Assembly: GCA_903928015.1 (NCBI GenBank)
Contig: CAIYPF010000090.1
Span: forward strand, 1 to 35,782
Length of the DNA stretch: 35,782 bases
Origin: an uncultured Gammaproteobacteria bacterium
Lineage (GTDB): Bacteria > Pseudomonadota > Gammaproteobacteria > Pseudomonadales > UBA5518
Reading direction: 5' to 3'
In this document: positions 25,755 through 34,408 of the stretch, in pieces
Position numbering within the stretch: position 1 is the first letter of the stretch
Layout of the letters: every line of letters starts with the position of its first letter
Position numbers and translations under genes: made by a program
Notes under the pieces: model-generated
Told to the model about the DNA's origin: nothing
Database searches by the model: none
What the model saw: the letters and a program-made list of their open reading frames with translations, nothing else

Positions 25755-26882
25755 ATGTCCATTCCCTCGAATTTCGGTTTCGGCGAAGAGGAACAGACGC
25801 TGCGTGATGCGGCGCGCAAGTTCCTTGCCGAGCAACTCCCCACCGACCGGCTGCACAGGCTGGTTGCCGGTCATCAGGCAGGGAGCCCGCGATGGGATCC
25901 CGCGCTGTGGGAGCAGATGGCCGCGCTCGGCTGGACGGGCGTCGGGGTGCCAGAGCGCTGTGGTGGTGTTGGCATGCCCTTCGTGGCAGCCGTTGCGCTT
26001 GCAGAGGAGGCGGGCAGGGCAGCCTTGCCGTCGCCTCTCATCGGCACGCTGCAGTCGAGCGCGCTGCTTGCCGCCTGCGGCAACGCCGAGGCAGATGCGG
26101 TGCTCACGCAGATCGCCTCAGGCAAGGCGGTTGCGCCGGGCATCACCGGGCCGCGCGGCGGCTGGCGTGGGCAGGACTGTGCACTCGAGGTGCAGGGAGG
26201 CTGTCTCAGCGGAACCGCGCATTGGGTTCAGGACGCCGCCAAGGCGGATGTATTCCTGCTGAAGGCGCGCGGTAGCGCGGGCACCGGGTTGTATGCGGTG
26301 CAAGCCGATGCTCCGGGGCTCTCGCTGCAGCCCGACGCCATCGTCGACCTGAGCCGCGATCAGGCGCGGCTGTCGCTTGCGTCGGTCCCTGCGGTCGAGC
26401 TTGCCGCGCCCGGCACTGCAGACAGTGTGATCGCGGCGGCCGAGCCCGCGCTCTTCACGCTGGTGTCTGCCGACCTCTGCGGTGCTGCCGAGTGGCTGCT
26501 GCAGACCACTGTCGAATATGCCCGCGTGCGCCAGCAATTCGACCGCCAGATCGGATTCTTCCAGGCAGTGAAGCATCCTCTGGTGGACGTGATGATCGCG
26601 ATAGACAGCGCGCGCTCCCACCTCTACAACGCCGCGAGTGCCGTCGACCACGACCCGGCCGTCTCCTTGCGTGCTGCACACATGGCCAAGTCTGCTGCTG
26701 CGGAGGCTGCCCGTTTCGGCGCCAGTCGGGCCGTTCAATTCCACGGCGGAATAGGTTTCACGTGGGAGTGCTACGTCCAGGTGTATTTCAAGCGGCAGTT
26801 GCACAACGAGGCGCTGTACGGGGATGCGGCCTGGCACCGCGCAAGGCTTGCAGAGATGCTGCTTGGCCCCGTGGGAGCCTGA
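25755..26882 (+). CDS. Acyl-CoA dehydrogenase, small/partner subunit type
   Basis: A 375-residue second acyl-CoA dehydrogenase. It has the C-terminal helical-domain motif VRQQFDRQIGFFQAVKHPL and FHGGIGFTWECYVQVYFKR. Its middle domain is short and degenerate, lacking the SEPGAGSD loop, as is common in the partner subunit of heteromeric enzymes such as ChsE. AGGTGAG 3-9 bases before the ATG at 25755 supports that start over the GTG at 25746. It probably binds FAD together with the large subunit, forming a composite active site. It ends 23 bp from the convergent oxyR gene. Confidence 0.9.
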   Translation: MSIPSNFGFGEEEQTLRDAARKFLAEQLPTDRLHRLVAGHQAGSPRWDPALWEQMAALGWTGVGVPERCGGVGMPFVAAVALAEEAGRAALPSPLIGTLQSSALLAACGNAEADAVLTQIASGKAVAPGITGPRGGWRGQDCALEVQGGCLSGTAHWVQDAAKADVFLLKARGSAGTGLYAVQADAPGLSLQPDAIVDLSRDQARLSLASVPAVELAAPGTADSVIAAAEPALFTLVSADLCGAAEWLLQTTVEYARVRQQFDRQIGFFQAVKHPLVDVMIAIDSARSHLYNAASAVDHDPAVSLRAAHMAKSAAAEAARFGASRAVQFHGGIGFTWECYVQVYFKRQLHNEALYGDAAWHRARLAEMLLGPVGA

Positions 26883-26905
26883 GACGCCGTCCACGTGCGG
26901 GGCGC

Positions 26906-27790
26906 TCAGGCGCTGTTGCGTGTTGCCCTGATCAGGTCCGCGATTGCCGTGAAGAATGCGGGCTGGCCGGCGCCGCGCCTCCACACCAGCCCGATGCTGC
27001 GGTGAGGTGCGGGAGGGTCGAAGGGAATGAAGTGCAGGCCGCGTGGCGCATCACGCGTGGCCATCTCCGGCACCAGCGTGATGCCGAGGTCCGTCGAGAC
27101 CATCTGCATCAGCGTCGGCAGGCTGGTGGCGCGGAAGTCACCGGACTCCTCGAGGGCATTCAGTTTGCAGAACTCGAGCGCCTGATCGCGCAGGCAGTGC
27201 CCCTCGTCCAGCAGAAGCAGCGGGTATTCCCCTAGGCTGTCAACACTGACCGATGAGCGTGTAGCCAGCGGGTGTGCGGCGCTCGTCGCAAGCAGGAAAG
27301 CCTCGTCGAAGAGCGGGCAACACTCCAGATCATCGCCCGGTACCGGCAGTGCAAGCAGCGCCAGATCGAGCTGGCCCCGGCGAAGTTTGAGCAGCAGTTG
27401 CTCGGTCTTGTCCTCGACCAGCAGGAGTCGCAGGCTGGGGAAACTCTCGTGGATCACGGGCACGATCCGCGGAAGCAGATAGGGCGCGAGCGTGGGAAAT
27501 GCCCCGAGCTTGTACTGTCCTGCCGAGGGATCCTTCAGACGCTTTGCCGTGAGTCGCAGTTCTTCGTAGTCGCGCAGGAGTACCCGGGCCCGCTCCACGA
27601 TCTGCTCCCCTGCCGGCGTCACCAGCACGCGCCGTCCGGAGCGCTCGAAGAGCTCTACGGAAAGATAATCCTCGACCTTCCTGATCTGCATGCTGAGCGT
27701 CGGCTGGCTCACGTGGCAACGCTCTGCCGCGCGCCCGAAGTGCTGCAGCTCCGCGACGGCAACGACGTACTGCAGGTCGCGGAGGTTCAC
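26906..27790 (-). CDS. oxyR: Peroxide-sensing LysR-type regulator OxyR
   Basis: A 294-residue LysR-family activator that senses H2O2 through a reversible disulfide. The helix-turn-helix covers roughly residues 18-37 (FGRAAERCHVSQPTLSMQIR). The redox pair is C199 and C208 in GHCLRDQALEFC, identical in number and spacing to E. coli OxyR. The GTG at 27790 is chosen because it matches the usual MNxRDLxYxVAV start and lies 10 bp after the DUF3501 stop; the longer frame overlaps that gene. It is the last gene of the rubrerythrin operon, whose promoter region carries a near-consensus OxyR site, implying positive autoregulation. Confidence 0.95.
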   Translation of the reverse strand: MNLRDLQYVVAVAELQHFGRAAERCHVSQPTLSMQIRKVEDYLSVELFERSGRRVLVTPAGEQIVERARVLLRDYEELRLTAKRLKDPSAGQYKLGAFPTLAPYLLPRIVPVIHESFPSLRLLLVEDKTEQLLLKLRRGQLDLALLALPVPGDDLECCPLFDEAFLLATSAAHPLATRSSVSVDSLGEYPLLLLDEGHCLRDQALEFCKLNALEESGDFRATSLPTLMQMVSTDLGITLVPEMATRDAPRGLHFIPFDPPAPHRSIGLVWRRGAGQPAFFTAIADLIRATRNSA

Positions 27791-27800
27791 TGGCGGGGGC

Positions 27801-28382
27801 TCAGTCGAGATCGCCCAGCAGCGAGGCACGCACTGCCGGATCGCTGATGGGTGTTTCGTAGCGGTAGCGGGGATGATCTATGCCGAAGACGAGATCAGCT
27901 CCGGCTCGCAGTGCTGCTTTTGCCTCTGCGCCCAGCGGAAAACGCAGGAAATGCACTGCGGAGGTCTTCTCCTCGTCGGAGCGCTCCATGTCCTCGTCGG
28001 CCAGTACCGCGATCCTGTGCTCGCCTGCGCGAACGTATACCGCGTGCTCGACCGCGCGCAGGTACTTCAGCTGGACGCGCCGCTCGTCGGCATCCTCGAA
28101 TTCCACCAGCATGGTCGCGCGCCAGTCGCTGCCGGCGGGAATCAGCGGGTTGTATGCGTCGAGCTCGTCCTGTATCGCGGCCGGGTCGGAGGTCTTCTCG
28201 ATGCGCAGCATCTCGAGGATCTGGTATTTCACCGTGTCGCGGTTCTCGAAGAGCAGTGTGACGTTCTCGCCGATCCGTACCTGGCGGGATTTCTTCGCCG
28301 CTATGACCAGTGAGCGCATCGCATCGCGACCGGCGGCGTAGTCCGCAACCGATGGCAGGTCGGAGAGTGTCAGGGGCTTCAT
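27801..28382 (-). CDS. DUF3501 family protein
   Basis: A 193-residue protein that I recognise as DUF3501, with the conserved opening MKPLTLSDLPSVADYAAGR, the middle LKYLRAVEHAVYVRAGEH and the end FGIDHPRYRYETPI. Function is unknown. DUF3501 genes recur beside a rubrerythrin and an Fe-S CCG protein in many genomes (recalled, not checked). The sequence is acidic, lacks membrane helices and has no cysteine pair, so it is probably a cytosolic partner rather than a redox centre. GAGGA lies 6-7 bases before the ATG; the gap from the Fe-S gene stop is 9 bp. Confidence 0.88.
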   Translation of the reverse strand: MKPLTLSDLPSVADYAAGRDAMRSLVIAAKKSRQVRIGENVTLLFENRDTVKYQILEMLRIEKTSDPAAIQDELDAYNPLIPAGSDWRATMLVEFEDADERRVQLKYLRAVEHAVYVRAGEHRIAVLADEDMERSDEEKTSAVHFLRFPLGAEAKAALRAGADLVFGIDHPRYRYETPISDPAVRASLLGDLD

Positions 28383-28391
28383 GCGGGATCC

Positions 28392-29723
28392 TCAGATGCC
28401 GTAGGCGCGGCGCAGCAGGCTGAGCGGGTGCGCCGGTTGCTCTTCCTGCCCCATGGCATGCGCTATGTGCGCGCCGGCCATCGGGCAGTCGCTGGTAAGC
28501 GAGGCCGGGTCGAATTGCTTCACCTGGTTCACCACCGGTTTGACGATCTTCATCGAGCGGTCATGCGTTTCCTTGCGCACGGCGTAGGTGCCGTCGTGGC
28601 CCGAACAGCGCTCGATGGCTTTCACTTCGGTGCCGGGAATGAGCGAAAGCACTTCGCGCGTCTTGAGGCCGATGTTCTGGACCCGCTGGTGACAGGCCAC
28701 CTGATAGGCGACCTTGCCAAGCGATGCGCTGAAATCCGTGCGCAGCAGGCCTGCTTTGTGACGGTGCATCAGGTACTCGAAGGGGTCGAAGATGTTGGCC
28801 TTCACCAGTTGCACGTCTGCATCGTCCGGGAACATCAGCGGCAGTTCCTGCTTGAACATCAGCGTGCAGGAAGGGATGGGCGCGACGATATCCCAGCCGT
28901 CGCGGATGGCCGCCGCCAGTATCGGTATGTTGTGTTCCTTCAACGCTGCCACCGAGGGCAGGTCGCCGAGTTCGAGCTTGGGCATGCCGCAGCATTTTTC
29001 GCCCTGCACCAGCGTGGCAGGGATGCCGTTGTGCTCGAAGACCTTGAACAGGTCCTCGCCCATTTGAGGCGTGTTGTAGGTGCCATAGCAGGTGCCGAAC
29101 ACCGCCACCCTCCCGCGGGTAGGACCGGCCTGCTGCACTGCTGACTCGAGGGGCTGGTGCTTTTTCAGGCGGCGCTTGAGCGTCTTGCTGTCATAGGTAG
29201 GTACCCGCGCCTTGTGGTGCACGCCGAGTGCGCCTTCGAGCGCCTTGCGTACCACGGCAGTGCGGTTGAGCGCGTTCACCGTCACGTCCACCAGCGGAAT
29301 CGTGGCGAGTTTGCCGACCGCGGTGGTTGAGGAGAGCACCTTGCGGCCCAGGCTCGCGCCTTCCTTGCGGAACTGCACGGCTTTCGCGCGCAGCATCAGG
29401 TGTGGGTAATCGATGGCCCATTCGTGCGGGGGTACATAAGGGCACTTGGTCTGGTAGCAGAGGTCGCAGAGGTAGCAGTGCTCAATGACGTCGGCGTACT
29501 TCGTTTTGTCCGCGCCATCGAGGTCGAAGGTCGGGGATTCGTCGATCATGTCGAACAGCGAGGGGAACGAGTCGCAGAGGCTCACACAGCGGCGACACCC
29601 GTTGCACAGGTCGAATACGCGGTCCATCTCGGCTGTGAGGGCTTTCTCGTCGTAGAAAGCCTCGTTCTGCCAGTCGAGGGGGTGACGGGTAGGGGCTTGC
29701 AGGCCGCCTTCACGCAGACTCAT
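28392..29723 (-). CDS. Two-[4Fe-4S] CCG-domain oxidoreductase (GlpC/HdrD-like)
   Basis: A 443-residue Fe-S protein resembling GlpC, heterodisulfide reductase HdrD and glycolate oxidase subunit F. The first cluster motif is C40-x2-C43-x2-C46-x3-C50; the second is C83-x2-C86-x2-C89-x4-C94-Pro, with one more residue than usual before the last cysteine. Two CCG-type domains follow, marked by EKCCGMP and ERCSGHDG. It would pass electrons, perhaps to the adjacent rubrerythrin, which lacks its own rubredoxin domain. GGAG lies eight bases before the ATG at 29723; the longer upstream frame is rejected. A hairpin at 29762-29787 separates it from rubrerythrin. Confidence 0.9.
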   Translation of the reverse strand: MSLREGGLQAPTRHPLDWQNEAFYDEKALTAEMDRVFDLCNGCRRCVSLCDSFPSLFDMIDESPTFDLDGADKTKYADVIEHCYLCDLCYQTKCPYVPPHEWAIDYPHLMLRAKAVQFRKEGASLGRKVLSSTTAVGKLATIPLVDVTVNALNRTAVVRKALEGALGVHHKARVPTYDSKTLKRRLKKHQPLESAVQQAGPTRGRVAVFGTCYGTYNTPQMGEDLFKVFEHNGIPATLVQGEKCCGMPKLELGDLPSVAALKEHNIPILAAAIRDGWDIVAPIPSCTLMFKQELPLMFPDDADVQLVKANIFDPFEYLMHRHKAGLLRTDFSASLGKVAYQVACHQRVQNIGLKTREVLSLIPGTEVKAIERCSGHDGTYAVRKETHDRSMKIVKPVVNQVKQFDPASLTSDCPMAGAHIAHAMGQEEQPAHPLSLLRRAYGI

Positions 29724-29761
29724 TGCTGTTGCTCCGTGCTGTTCGCGTGGGAATAGGGGGT

Positions 29762-29787
29762 GGACGGACGGCGGTTGCCGTCCGTCC
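29762..29787 (-). repeat. Perfect 11-bp inverted repeat inside the rubrerythrin operon
   Basis: GGACGGACGGC and GCCGTCCGTCC pair perfectly with a GGTT loop (AACC on the transcribed strand). It lies 9 bp after the rubrerythrin stop and 38 bp before the next start. No T-run follows, so read-through is expected; it may stabilise the rubrerythrin mRNA or reduce downstream expression. Confidence 0.55.
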
Positions 29788-29796
29788 GGGGCCGCA

Positions 29797-30219
29797 TCAG
29801 CCGGCCAGGTAGCTGTCCAGAGTCTTCTGGAACTTGCCTGCGTGGCTGCGCTCTGCCTTGGCCAGAGTCTCGAACCAGTCGGCGATCTCGTCGAAGCCCT
29901 CGTCACGAGCGGTCTTCGCCATGCCCGGGTACATATCGGTGTACTCGTGCGTCTCGCCGGCAATCGAGGCACGCAGGTTGTCTGCGGTGCCGCCGATCGG
30001 TTGGCCGGTGGCGGGATCGCCTACAGCCTCGAGATACTCCAGGTGGCCGTGTGCGTGGCCGGTCTCGCCCTCTGCGGTCGAGCGGAAAACGGCTGCCACA
30101 TCGGGTGCGCCTTCTACGTCGGCCTTCGCAGCGAAGTACAGGTAGCGGCGGTTGGCCTGGCTCTCGCCCGCAAAGGCGTCAGCCAGGTTCTTGGCGGTCT
30201 TGGAACCTTTCAGGTCCAT
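29797..30219 (-). CDS. rbr: Rubrerythrin without rubredoxin domain
   Basis: A 140-residue ferritin-like diiron protein. Ligand residues can be read as E19 ([14 protein letters not shown]), E52/H55 (GETGH), E89 and E92 (GETHEY), and E123/H126 (ERSH). The family reduces H2O2 to water. The C-terminal rubredoxin (CxxC...CxxC) found in classical rubrerythrin is missing, so an outside electron donor is needed; the Fe-S protein in the same operon is a candidate. GGAGG lies six bases before the ATG at 30219. It is the first gene after the OxyR-box promoter. Confidence 0.94.
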
Positions 30220-30290
30220 GTCGTGCCTCCAGTGAAACGGATGGTGGAATGGTGTGCGCCAGAAGACCCGTTGGGTTATCGAGCAAGGCC

Positions 30291-30318
30291 AGCATAGCGG
30301 CCGAACGATAAGTTACAA
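30291..30318 (-). promoter_or_regulatory. Candidate sigma-70 promoter of the rubrerythrin operon
   Basis: On the minus strand, TTGTAA (30318-30313) and TATGCT (30296-30291) lie 16 bp apart. Each matches four of six bases, as expected for an activator-dependent promoter. The OxyR box abuts the -35 element. The predicted leader is about 65 nt. Confidence 0.55.
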
Positions 30319-30354
30319 CAGTAATCTTCTATTCGATCGATAGAAGTTGGCTAT
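30318..30354. promoter_or_regulatory. OxyR binding site
   Basis: A 37-bp sequence with four tetranucleotides spaced by exactly seven bases: ACAG (30318-30321), CTAT (30329-30332), ATAG (30340-30343) and CTAT (30351-30354). The OxyR consensus is ATAG-N7-CTAT-N7-ATAG-N7-CTAT, so 15 of 16 core bases match; the inner T and A positions of each half-site do not. It lies immediately upstream of the -35 of the rubrerythrin operon, the position expected for activation. Confidence 0.75.
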
Positions 30355-30400
30355 CAGTAGATGGCGTCGAGCGGTAGGCGTGGGGACGGGGGAGGGCAGA

Positions 30401-30970
30401 TCAGCCGGGCTCGCCCCAGCGCTTCAACAGGGAGTGCTCGATGCCCATGCAATCGAGGGCGCGGCCCACCGTCTGGTCGATCAGATCGTCAACGCTGACG
30501 GGGCCCGCGTAGAACGCCGGCACCGGAGGAAGTATCTGTGCGCCGTAGTCGGTGGCACGGAGCATCAATTCAAGGTGCCCTTTGTGCAGTGGGGTCTCGC
30601 GGACCATGAGGACCAGACGGCGGCGCTCCTTCAGGCAGACATCGGCGGCCCGCACCATCAGGGTGTCGGCGTAGCAATTGGCCACACCCGAGAGCGTCTT
30701 GATGCTGCAGGGCGCGATGATCATGCCCTCGGTCCGGAACGATCCGCTGGCGATGGACGCAGCGAGGTTGTCGTTGCGGTGCCAGACCTCGCAGAGTCCG
30801 CGAAGATCCTCGGCGCGGCGCCCGGTTTCGATTGCGAGCGTGCGGTCCGCACTGGCGGAGATGACCAGATGGACTTCGTGTGAGCCGAGTTCGCGAAGCC
30901 TCTCCAGCAGGCGTACGCCGTAGATCACGCCGCTGGACCCGCTTATCCCGACGATGATCCTGCGCGTCAT
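30401..30970 (-). CDS. ubiX: Flavin prenyltransferase UbiX
   Basis: A 189-residue enzyme that joins dimethylallyl phosphate to FMN and supplies the prenyl-FMN cofactor of UbiD-type decarboxylases, including the one for ubiquinone biosynthesis. Family motifs are GISGSSGVIYG at residues 8-18, PCSIKTLSGVANCYAD and RRLVLMVRETPLH. The length is normal. GGAG lies five bases before the ATG at 30970. The gene is divergent from the channel gene across 102 bp and ends upstream of the rubrerythrin promoter region. No UbiD gene is in the window. Confidence 0.96.
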   Translation of the reverse strand: MTRRIIVGISGSSGVIYGVRLLERLRELGSHEVHLVISASADRTLAIETGRRAEDLRGLCEVWHRNDNLAASIASGSFRTEGMIIAPCSIKTLSGVANCYADTLMVRAADVCLKERRRLVLMVRETPLHKGHLELMLRATDYGAQILPPVPAFYAGPVSVDDLIDQTVGRALDCMGIEHSLLKRWGEPG

Positions 30971-31072
30971 GCTCGCTCCGGTAGTTGTTCCGAGGGGTTT
31001 GCACGGGGGGAGAGGGCGGGTTGCCGTGCGTAGTAGACTCCGCCCCGATCACGTAATCACCGGTGCTCCGAG

Positions 31073-34000
31073 ATGGTACTGCGACATCCCGCGATTGTCC
31101 TGTTGCTTGTGTTTGCTGCGGCCCTGGGGGGCACGCGTTCCGCACTTGCGGTCGATGATGCGGCCATGGCAGTGCCACACCTGGAAGCGATGGAAAAGGC
31201 CCTCGAGGGTTTGCGCAACGCACCCGCCGAGGATGTGCATGCCCAGCGCCTGAGGGAACTCTACAGCTCGGCGGTGCAGAACCTCCGTGCAGCTGCAGAC
31301 AACCGGGTCGAGGTTGCGCGTTACGAGAGACTCTACGCCGATGCGCCCGAGCGCTCTGCAAGGTTCACGGCTGAACTTCAGGATTTGCAGCGCAACGCAC
31401 GGCGGATATCCATTTCGCGCGACATGTCGGTAGAGCGGCTCGAGCGTCGCCTGGACGAGACCGAGGCGCGCGTCGCTGCGCTGCGAACCGAGGAAATCTC
31501 CCTCGGCAATACCACCGCCACCTTGCAGACGCGGGTGGATGCGGCGCGTCAGGAATTGAAAGCACTGGGCGATGTCGCGGCCCGTCGCGAAGGGGCGCCA
31601 GTGCCGCGCCCCGGCGAGAGCGGGGAACTCACCCGTGCGCGGATGGAGGAGTGGCTGGCGCATCAGGACTATCGCGCCTCCCAGCGGCAGAAACTCGAGA
31701 CCGAGGTGCGCACGCTCCCGTCCCGGCTTGATGCCCGCAAGGCGGAGCTCAAGCTGGTGGTGCTGCAGCGCGAGCTGGCAGAGCGGGATCTCGCCGATAT
31801 CGCGGGCCAGGAGCAACTTCGACGCATCGCCGAGGCCTCGCGACTGCGTGAGCAGACCGTAGAGCACGTGGAACGTCTGGACAGCAGCCTCCCGGAGTTG
31901 CGCGCCCTTGCAACCGAGGTCAAAGCGCTCGGAGACGAGTACGTTGATGTCGTGACCCGCTTCGAGGCGGGCAGCGCCAACGTCGCGCATGCACAGCGCT
32001 CACTCGAGGACCTGCGTTCATCCTTCAGCGCCACGCGCCAGCAGTTGGAGATTGCAGCCCTGAGCGACGCCCTGGGTCCGGTGCTGGTCGAACAGTATCT
32101 CGGGCTCGACGACTTCGAGCGCCCGGACCGCGAGCTCGCGGCGCTATCGGCGATGCTCTCGGATACCCGCCTCCGTGAGTTCCGCATCGAGCAGTTGCGC
32201 GAGCAGTCGAACGCAAGGCGCGAGCAACTGGAATCGGTTGTCGGCGCTGCCCACGCGGGGAACGTGCGCGAGTTCGAGTCGGCGATGGGCGAGGCGGACC
32301 AGTTGCTCGATGACCGGGACGCGCTTCTCGATGCGCTCGGTGGGGTCTACGTCAAGCTCACGGGCCACATCATCGAGCTGGATGCCGTTTACCAGGAGCA
32401 GGCCGCGCTGGCCCGGAGTTTCCGGCAGTTGCTCGACCGCAACCTGATCTGGATGAAGTCCCACGCGTCGCTGCGGCTCGATGAGCTGGCGGCCTTTCCG
32501 GGTGCCTTCGTCCTGCTCGTGACGGCGCAGGACTGGCGCGGACTCGCGGCCGAGGTCGTTGCGGGCCTTCAGGGGGCGGCGCTGAACGGAATCGCCACCC
32601 TCATCGCGCTGTTGCTGCTGTGGCGCAACCGCAGCAGGTTGCGGGCCCAGCTCCTGCGCATAGGCCAGCGATCCGTCGGCTGGAAGGACTACCGCTTCCA
32701 CATGGCCTTGCAGGCGCTTGGCATACATCTACTGCTCGCGCTTCCACTGCCCCTGATAATGCTGTGGTGCGGGCACCTCCTCGATGGCGTCTACAGCGAA
32801 AACCCGCTTGCACCGGCGCTGGGCGATGCCGCCACCGAACTTGGTGTCATCGGTTACGGATACCTGTTTCTCCTTGGCCTCTTCGGCGAGGAGGGTTTTG
32901 CCAGGCAGCATCTGCGCTGGAAGACGGCGCGTGTACTGAGCATCCGGCGCTGGATGCAGCTCGGGCTGCGGGTCCTGTTGCCGCTGGGTTTCGTGTTCCT
33001 TGCGTTGGGAGGGTTTACCGACACACCTTCCGGCGCTCTGGTACAGCGTGTGGTTTCGCTGCTGTTCAGCACGGCTTTCCTGGTGTTCTCGGTGATCCTC
33101 GTGCGGGCCGGTACGGGCATGTTCGGCGGCGCCTTCTTCGCACGGCGCTTCGTGCTGGCCGGCCGTGCCGGGCGCGTGCTCGTGATGCTTCTGCTGGCAG
33201 TACAGCCGCTGGCCCTGCTGCTCGACGTCCAGGGCTATCACTTCACGGCTACCGCGCTGCAGGTCCGGGTGCTGGTCACCATCGTTGTGCTGGTGCTCGC
33301 AAAACTGGTGATAGACACGGGCCTGCTCGGACTCACTATCGCCGGTCAGCGCACTGCCATGGCACGCGAGCAACACGCGCAGGGAGACGGCAAGAGCACC
33401 GAGACGCCCGAAGACGTCGACCTCGAGAAAATGAACTCGAGTGCCATTGCGCTGCTGCAGGTCTTCGTGCTCGGCCTCACGGCGGCGGTGCTGCTGTCGC
33501 TGTGGTCGCAGTTCTTCACCGCGCTCAGCATCCTGGACGGCGTGGAGCTCTGGCAGCACGAGGCCGTGATTGAGGGCAAGACAGTGCTGGAGAGTGTGTC
33601 GCTCTTCGACATGCTGGGCGCGCTGCTTCTCTTCGGGGCCTCGCTGATCGTGGCGCGCGGCCTCCCGGCGCTGCTCGGGATCGTTCTCTACAGCTTCGTC
33701 ACACGCAAAGGGGTCCTGTTCGCCATCCAGACACTGATTTCCTATGCCGCCGTGTCGGTGGGACTGTTCCTCAGCCTGCAGATGCTGGGCTTCGGCTGGG
33801 CAAAGCTGCAGTGGATGGCGGCAGGTCTCTCGGTGGGTCTCGGCTTCGGCCTGCAGGAAATCTTCGCCAACTTCTTCGCTGGCCTGATCATGCTCTTCGA
33901 GCGCCCGGTGCGCATTGGCGATGTCATCACGCTGGGAGAGTACAGCGGCACCATCCAGAAGATCCGCATGCGCGCCACGACCATCACGGATTTCGACAAC

Positions 34001-34408
34001 CGCGAGATCATTGTTCCCAACAAGAATTTCGTGACCGAGCGCCTGATCAACTGGACGCTCTCGTCCTCGGTGGTGCGCATGAGCTTCGACGTCGGTGTGT
34101 CCTACAACTCCGACCCGCGCCTCGTGCGCGAGACGCTGATGGAGCTCCTCGCCGCGGATCCACGCATCCTCAAAGATCCGCCCCCCAACGTCGTGTTTCG
34201 CGAGTTCGCCGACAGCGCGCTCAATTTCCGGTGCTTCGGACATGTCGAGGACATCAGTCTGCGCTTCCAGGTGCAGAGCGAGATGCACATGCGTATCACC
34301 GAGGTCTTCCGCGAGAAAGGTATCGAGATCGCCTATCCGCAGATGGATCTGCACCTGCGCTCGGTCGATCAGGTCGCCGGTGCGCGTATCGCGGGGGAAG
34401 GCGCGTGA
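31073..34408 (+). CDS. mscK: MscK/KefA-type large mechanosensitive channel
   Basis: A 1111-residue inner-membrane channel that opens under hypo-osmotic stress. It starts with a signal peptide (about residues 1-26, ending RSALA) and a long periplasmic coiled-coil region up to about residue 480, rich in Glu, Arg and Leu. About ten membrane helices follow. The MscS pore and beta domain begin near residue 910 with GLSVGLGFGLQEIFANF and FERPVRIGDVITLGEYSGT, then DNREIIVPNKNF. E. coli MscK is 1120 residues, so the size agrees. No clear ribosome site precedes the ATG at 31073. The stop overlaps the next gene's GTG as GTGA. Confidence 0.93.
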   Translation: MVLRHPAIVLLLVFAAALGGTRSALAVDDAAMAVPHLEAMEKALEGLRNAPAEDVHAQRLRELYSSAVQNLRAAADNRVEVARYERLYADAPERSARFTAELQDLQRNARRISISRDMSVERLERRLDETEARVAALRTEEISLGNTTATLQTRVDAARQELKALGDVAARREGAPVPRPGESGELTRARMEEWLAHQDYRASQRQKLETEVRTLPSRLDARKAELKLVVLQRELAERDLADIAGQEQLRRIAEASRLREQTVEHVERLDSSLPELRALATEVKALGDEYVDVVTRFEAGSANVAHAQRSLEDLRSSFSATRQQLEIAALSDALGPVLVEQYLGLDDFERPDRELAALSAMLSDTRLREFRIEQLREQSNARREQLESVVGAAHAGNVREFESAMGEADQLLDDRDALLDALGGVYVKLTGHIIELDAVYQEQAALARSFRQLLDRNLIWMKSHASLRLDELAAFPGAFVLLVTAQDWRGLAAEVVAGLQGAALNGIATLIALLLLWRNRSRLRAQLLRIGQRSVGWKDYRFHMALQALGIHLLLALPLPLIMLWCGHLLDGVYSENPLAPALGDAATELGVIGYGYLFLLGLFGEEGFARQHLRWKTARVLSIRRWMQLGLRVLLPLGFVFLALGGFTDTPSGALVQRVVSLLFSTAFLVFSVILVRAGTGMFGGAFFARRFVLAGRAGRVLVMLLLAVQPLALLLDVQGYHFTATALQVRVLVTIVVLVLAKLVIDTGLLGLTIAGQRTAMAREQHAQGDGKSTETPEDVDLEKMNSSAIALLQVFVLGLTAAVLLSLWSQFFTALSILDGVELWQHEAVIEGKTVLESVSLFDMLGALLLFGASLIVARGLPALLGIVLYSFVTRKGVLFAIQTLISYAAVSVGLFLSLQMLGFGWAKLQWMAAGLSVGLGFGLQEIFANFFAGLIMLFERPVRIGDVITLGEYSGTIQKIRMRATTITDFDNREIIVPNKNFVTERLINWTLSSSVVRMSFDVGVSYNSDPRLVRETLMELLAADPRILKDPPPNVVFREFADSALNFRCFGHVEDISLRFQVQSEMHMRITEVFREKGIEIAYPQMDLHLRSVDQVAGARIAGEGA

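Follow-up and report, generated by a model that had tools for sequence, protein, structure and literature searches.

From where does a rubrerythrin that lacks a rubredoxin domain of its own obtain its electrons, and what do the genes encoded next to it contribute? This question is raised by a run of genes within a stretch of 35,782 nucleotides (the whole of which is called the window below) from an uncultured Gammaproteobacteria bacterium (Pseudomonadales; UBA5518), representing positions 1 to 35,782 of contig CAIYPF010000090.1 in GenBank assembly GCA_903928015.1. On the reverse strand, the gene for a single-domain (aerobic-type) rubrerythrin (rbr) is followed by those for an iron-sulfur (Fe-S)/CCG protein named RFO and a protein of the family DUF3501, and by an oxyR-type regulator gene of the LysR family that closes the run. 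The trio rbr-rfo-DUF3501 probably destroys hydrogen peroxide, and we hold it to be fairly likely that it forms a non-haem peroxide reductase of the aerobic-type rubrerythrin kind that is induced by H2O2, with RFO as the reductant and DUF3501 in a docking role.

The trio itself is already published. Cardenas et al. (2016) defined the aerobic-type rubrerythrin group, reported the co-localization of the three genes, named RFO and proposed it as a substitute for the lost rubredoxin; by their count, the complete trio occurs in 185 genomes and rubrerythrin with DUF3501 only in 25 (PMC5114695). The trio is also described for Acidihalobacter (PMC7760498), for Sideroxydans, where in 2020 the genes for DUF3501, RFO and rubrerythrin were reported to cluster with oxyR (PMC7852563), and for the protist Andalucia, which has all three proteins with predicted mitochondrial targeting (PMC7050145). 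The window copy, with the same three families, a one-domain rubrerythrin and co-localized genes, is an ordinary, well preserved member of this system, and differs from the trio of Cardenas et al. in its trailing oxyR-type gene and a near-perfect OxyR-type operator; the words 'OxyR', 'PerR' and 'regulat' are all absent from the main text of that paper. An earlier note, made from the sequence alone, had stated that the electron route and the job of DUF3501 appear undescribed. An 'undescribed system' has to be rejected, considering that a founding description exists and that the idea of RFO in place of rubredoxin dates from 2016 (PMC5114695); the statement stood in so far as no experiment on RFO or DUF3501 was found in the literature searched, which left most subscription papers and all preprints outside. 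What is added here is the split between two promoter types and the likeness in fold of RFO.

Gene run, neighbourhood and rubrerythrin

Along the run rbr/RFO/DUF3501/oxyR-type the intergenic gaps measure 73, 9 and 10 bases, and such short distances make a single rbr-rfo-DUF3501-oxyR transcript plausible. The last of these gaps places the likely GTG start of the regulator gene (~26906-27790), at 27790, 10 bp past the DUF3501 stop. A scan of 26800-31100 for consensus promoters and terminators returned no sigma-70-like site and one terminator-like element on the non-coding strand, fewer than were obtained in shuffled sequences.

To what extent the three genes belong together was evaluated on 112 DUF3501 loci, being the best 80, by similarity to A1, of at least 584 confirmed ones, plus 32 from other genomes; the resulting counts are not independent, as related genomes were each counted. 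All three genes were recovered at 98 of these loci, some of them partial at contig ends, and in 98 out of these 98 the order was rbr-rfo-DUF3501 on one strand, a neighbourhood beyond what chance would give. A contig end truncates eight of the 14 remaining loci (L040, L042, L075, L094, L097, L099, L111 and L146), and for L061, L069, L091 and L109, representing four of the five named genomes in which a member is not adjacent, whole-genome searches located the missing member elsewhere. The fixed order backs the grouping in three parts that the earlier note had proposed.

The product of rbr (29797-30219) comprises 140 amino acids, of which residues 10-133 are covered by PF02915 (101 bits). It contains no cysteine and therefore no rubredoxin domain, as expected from the same note, which had found no built-in electron donor and a complete set of diiron ligands. 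Indeed, the seven candidate ligands (E19, E52, H55, E89, E92, E123 and H126) are identical in 96/96 aligned rubrerythrins (an alignment that included near full-length matches only, from 95 loci); their individual roles are assumed by analogy with Rbr of D. vulgaris. The closest solved relatives are the rubrerythrins 9ONM, 4DI0 and 8FUH, together with sulerythrin.

Several loci contain an additional gene. An encapsulated-ferritin (EncFtn) gene is situated between those for RFO and DUF3501 at six of them (L041:6705-6995, L051:6688-6981, L058:6680-6973, L110:4533-4832, L113:6635-6937 and L119:5669-5959) and before the DUF3501 gene at L111:107-400, where the contig stops before RFO; the family assignment (PF22277) was checked on the protein of L051. 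The gene for the encapsulin shell (PF04454) was found in none of eight genomes searched (the seven with EncFtn and that of the window), an absence that is provisional since several of these are metagenome-assembled genomes. In the window itself, a gene for a UbiX-family flavin prenyltransferase (30401-30970) and one for a large mechanosensitive channel of the MscS superfamily (31073-34408) lie outside the operon and have no evident tie to the trio.

RFO as candidate electron carrier and DUF3501 as candidate docking protein

RFO (28392-29723; 443 amino acids) matches the CCG family PF02754 and, more weakly and below the respective cut-offs, 4Fe-4S families. The window protein has 15 cysteines, each of them invariant in 98/98 sequences (alignment of near full-length matches from 97 loci, 65 of which entered the structure alignment). 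Two sets of four, C40, C43, C46, C50 and C83, C86, C89, C94, fit two [4Fe-4S] motifs. The 'two-cluster' description in the earlier note was an undercount, as seven further invariant cysteines are found in the two CCG repeats. The first repeat holds C212, C244, C245 and C286; the second holds C344, C373 and C413, together with H345 and H376, and has no CC pair, C373 being followed by S or A in 98/98 sequences. At position 283 a Cys occurs in 0/98. Given the cysteine sets and the placement of the CC pair within the CCG repeats, we infer that RFO can hold two cubane clusters plus one or two HdrB/EtfD-like clusters.

The fold of the RFO model (predicted local distance difference test, pLDDT, 93) was found to resemble those of LutA (Z 24.7 over 227 residues, with a LutA entry that is itself an integrative model), EtfD (Z 21.9 over 363 residues, almost the full length), HdrB (Z ~20 over ~231 residues) and 3KWL, an H. 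pylori protein that is itself unexplained (Z 16.4 over 297 residues). When solved structures were searched by sequence, the single sequence returned none at E 0.01 and the profile returned HdrB only (E 0.003); the likeness to EtfD and LutA rests on the predicted fold, as neither was reached by these searches. EtfD, the electron-transferring flavoprotein (ETF):menaquinone oxidoreductase, is described as a wire from ETF to menaquinone that runs over a pair of cubane clusters and a pair bound by CCG domains (PMC13083937; PDB 9OJN). RFO shares with it the Fe-S dicluster and the two CCG domains, but it appears to be soluble, without the transmembrane haem part, and has its CC pair in the first CCG repeat whereas that of EtfD is reported in the second (PMC13083937). 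No membrane-type hydrophobic stretch was observed in RFO, the highest mean hydropathy over 19 residues being 1.2 (a dedicated membrane predictor was not run). Judged by its model, RFO resembles the soluble portion of an electron carrier of the respiratory chain.

The nearest NCBIfam models of RFO are GlpC and lactate-type subunits, which could suggest that RFO works in an oxidation of its own, of the respiratory or lactate/glycerol type, and has only the promoter in common with rbr. We consider this very improbable: no catalytic flavoprotein subunit was present among the adjacent genes searched, the linkage between RFO and rubrerythrin is strict, and the best match, to GlpC (anaerobic glycerol-3-phosphate dehydrogenase subunit C), reached 219.8 bits against a curated cut-off of 278 (NF008369), so that the assignment of RFO as GlpC was rejected. 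The adjoining genes encode rubrerythrin and DUF3501, and not glpA/glpB.

The DUF3501 protein (27801-28382; 193 amino acids; PF12007, 214 bits) has ten residues that are kept in 112/112 sequences (R19, F45, E46, Q54, E57, E73, Y77, P82, G84 and D131), and cysteine is absent from the window protein as well as from the strongly conserved columns. Its model (pLDDT 92) closely resembles the solved but unexplained relative 3FJV (Z 26.1); beyond that, matches had Z values of at most 6.7 (CrdA, adaptor-type beta-sandwiches and immunoglobulin domains), barely covered the N-terminal helix region and may reflect a common arrangement only. The published gene content includes DUF3501-RFO fusions in Nitrosomonas and, in the Thermoproteales, DUF3501 with rubrerythrin in the absence of RFO (PMC5114695), which would fit a protein that contacts both partners. 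Considering the lack of cysteine, the fusion to RFO and the co-occurrence with rubrerythrin without RFO, DUF3501 is most likely a docking or assembly part that holds or positions RFO and rubrerythrin. Of 299 genomes sampled across the phylum, 17 contain the family, as do 17 of 55 relatives, the genome of the window being counted in both. The lone DUF3501 of G311 (L149; genome 99% complete) is divergent (30% identity to that of the window) and possibly represents a separate use of the fold.

An alternative division of labour is that RFO is not the donor: general NAD(P)H:ferredoxin reductases would feed the rubrerythrin, and RFO and DUF3501 would, following peroxide stress, mend or load the diiron site or oxidized Fe-S/thiol targets. 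Such a role is at odds with the near-fixed linkage of the RFO and rubrerythrin genes. Moreover, the second repeat of RFO has no CC pair and position 283 is never a Cys (98 sequences), unlike the full catalytic motif of HdrB. On the other hand, the CCG repeats are like those of HdrB, which is described as a heterodisulfide-cleaving protein (PMC13083937), and pairs of rubrerythrin and DUF3501 without RFO exist (PMC5114695; and the genome of L066). The alternative is further favoured by ferriperoxin of Hydrogenobacter thermophilus, which like the window protein is a single-domain rubrerythrin; it has peroxidase activity and is required for aerobic growth, the disruptant being sensitive to O2 and H2O2 and unable to grow at 10% O2, and in vitro it reduced H2O2 with NADPH and ferredoxin-NADP reductase (FNR), RFO being absent from the assay as described (PMC3317640). 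The system differs from that of the window in that its activity was measured with FNR and that the RFO gene of Hydrogenobacter is reported to lie apart from the other two (PMC5114695). All in all, we regard a role for RFO other than that of donor as unlikely, and retain RFO as the proposed reductant.

Two promoter types at the trio

For the OxyR operator we take the consensus to be ATAG-N7-CTAT-N7-ATAG-N7-CTAT. A site that agrees with it in 15 of 16 positions, ACAG-N7-CTAT-N7-ATAG-N7-CTAT, is found at 30318-30354, 98 bp upstream of the rbr start. It is the sole match in the window at three mismatches or fewer (0.01 expected in shuffled windows) and the top-scoring one in the whole genome of 4.27 Mb. 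The same promoter in three congeners contains OxyR-type sites with 1, 1 and 2 mismatches. The regulator encoded at the end of the run has OxyR as its best NCBIfam model (NF008361; 285.9 bits) and is termed 'OxyR-type' because this score is under the curated cut-off. Its cysteine pair, in GHCLRDQALEFC, has the GHC-N8-C setting of the redox cysteine pair of OxyR. The gene recurs at four congener loci (L143-L146, the copy of L143 being cut by the contig end). Peroxide control by OxyR, which the earlier note had inferred and from which it tied the trio to H2O2 defence, is supported by this operator.

Sites of the same type were also encountered elsewhere. One with 13/16 positions (L003:1501-1537; contig C48 of G000, the genome of the window) precedes the ATG of katG (1607 onward) by 69 bp, and katG is a gene at which OxyR control would be anticipated. 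The katG product (L003) opens, as judged by eye, with a signal-peptide-like stretch, which suggests a periplasmic catalase-peroxidase. Seven other genomes, picked for rbr promoters that already scored three mismatches or fewer, were scanned at a maximum of two: the rbr promoter was the sole place genome-wide in five of them (G302, G299, G303, G019 and G270) and one of three places in G010, and G246 had none, with the reversed control yielding one place over the seven genomes, in G270. The best site of G010 (15/16) is flanked by a LysR gene whose product has the OxyR-type pair of cysteines and by a gene that resembles dihaem cytochrome c peroxidase; both genes were named by eye from the sequence, without a family search. 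Outside the genus, 8 of 108 loci have, near the trio, a LysR gene that encodes the cysteine pair of OxyR (L041, L054, L066, L073, L076, L136, L137 and L140).

Across the loci, a second operator was seen, the palindrome TTAGA-N5-TCTAA. Using thresholds that were fixed after the spread of the scores was seen (up to four mismatches for the OxyR-type site, up to one for the palindrome), 24 of the 96 rbr promoters with enough upstream sequence contained the former, 46 the latter and one both (Fisher p = 2e-7 for the split, uncorrected for relatedness). Reversed control patterns were found before rbr in 1/96 and 1/96 cases, and upstream of the other two genes the sites were rare to absent (rfo: 0/100 OxyR-type and 3/100 palindrome; DUF3501: 0/112 for both). 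In the window itself the palindrome is absent at a maximum of one mismatch.

The palindrome is built in the 7-1-7 manner of boxes of the Fur family, and it resembles the Irr/ICE box. At seven loci (L101, L128-L131, L147 and L148) a gene for an Irr-like member of the Fur family is located directly upstream of rbr, and the Pfam family FUR was confirmed on the proteins of L130 and L101. To specify the association, 33 genomes with the trio or DUF3501 were searched with a single Irr-like query protein, presence being defined as 100 bits or more; ten genomes reached this value and the others had at most 51 bits or nothing. Among the 31 of these 33 with an rbr promoter that could be judged, the palindrome occurred in 8 of the 10 genomes with an Irr-like protein versus 0 of the 21 without (p = 6e-6), and the OxyR-type site in 0/10 versus 11/21 (p = 0.005). 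The palindrome is also present in beta- and gammaproteobacterial loci without an adjacent regulator. A narrower pattern, TTAGANTNANTCTAA, had exact matches in only two of five genomes (G219 and G191), one each, located in either case at the trio; when one mismatch was allowed, it was found at 10 places and the reversed control likewise at 10 over the five genomes, the counts being equal in some. At L135 and L137, which have neither main site, another palindrome, TGAGAA-N3-TTCTCA, is situated ~26 bp upstream of rbr.

Taken together, the promoter sequences suggest that some bacteria switch the trio via a peroxide-sensor site and others via an iron/haem-type repressor site, to which the respective regulators would bind. 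In Bradyrhizobium, Irr was reported to bind before a rubrerythrin-like gene, but this gene (blr7895, MbfA-related) encodes a different protein (PMC3413700). No report of a split between OxyR and Irr-like promoters for the trio was found in the literature searched.

The link with an Irr-like, iron/haem-type regulator, which involves 46 of the 96 promoters, raises the question whether the trio is mainly a module for the oxidation and storage of iron (a ferroxidase), in which peroxide would act as oxidant of Fe(II), as in Dps. The ferritin-like fold of rubrerythrin points in the same direction, and so does the EncFtn-type gene just before DUF3501 in 7 of the 112 loci, which follows RFO in all six that have it. 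A ferroxidase, though, needs no partner that acts as electron wire, and OxyR-type sites are found at other loci and also at katG and the cytochrome c peroxidase-like gene. We therefore judge a ferroxidase module to be quite improbable, and keep to a peroxide reductase that is fed by RFO.

Proposed mechanism and what it means

The mechanism that we propose starts with peroxide oxidizing the OxyR-type protein encoded at the operon end, which would then act at 30318-30354 and induce rbr-rfo-DUF3501-oxyR. The diiron rubrerythrin would turn H2O2 into water and end in the diferric state, upon which RFO, as a soluble Fe-S wire of the EtfD/GlpC/LutA/HdrB type, would re-reduce it instead of a rubredoxin. 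DUF3501 would join or position RFO and rubrerythrin. Given the EtfD-like fold of the RFO model, our tentative first guess is that RFO receives its electrons from the quinol pool or else from a flavoprotein, for instance ETF. In its full form, a proposal that we likewise put forward with considerable reserve, RFO would be a membrane-free EtfD that passes quinol or flavoprotein electrons to the diiron rubrerythrin, with DUF3501 docking the latter, making a soluble, non-haem peroxide reductase with a link to respiration that is switched by OxyR in part of the lineages and by an Irr-like Fur repressor in others.

A number of observations weigh against a peroxide reductase composed in this way. The kinship of the loci implies that the statistics overstate independence, and 27 of the 96 rbr promoters contain neither operator. 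The score of the window's regulator stays under the OxyR cut-off of 329, and apart from the operator its genome has three further sites with three mismatches, that before katG among them, versus three for the reversed control, which as a group amounts to background. Only L054 and L140 of the eight loci with such a LysR gene nearby have a promoter that scores as OxyR-type, so that a neighbouring oxyR and the site pattern correspond poorly; the spacing may be a different one for these regulators, or sites are overlooked by the pattern. With respect to the partners, the genome of Arenimonas malthae (L066) encodes rubrerythrin and DUF3501 and gave no match to RFO, G301, one of five congeners (93% complete), is without DUF3501, and the whole-genome search of G311 returned a match to neither rubrerythrin nor RFO. 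The operon contains no flavoprotein or quinone gene. A related rubrerythrin was reported to bind metals promiscuously (PMC12585693), ferriperoxin functions with FNR and without RFO, which implies that RFO may not be the donor, and the searched literature offers no experiment on either RFO or DUF3501.

For the single-domain rubrerythrins, which are widespread in aerobes, the operon offers three candidates that can be tested: a donor (RFO, as an EtfD-like wire), a docking subunit (DUF3501) and a switch (here the OxyR-type site, elsewhere the Irr-linked palindrome). Should the donor turn out to be quinol or ETF, there would be a direct coupling of the respiratory chain to peroxide defence, and this would then also apply to protists with predicted mitochondrial copies (PMC7050145). 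RFO as a membrane-free EtfD, if true, would make this a system that aerobic bacteria have in common with some mitochondria, the latter judged by the gene content in the literature.

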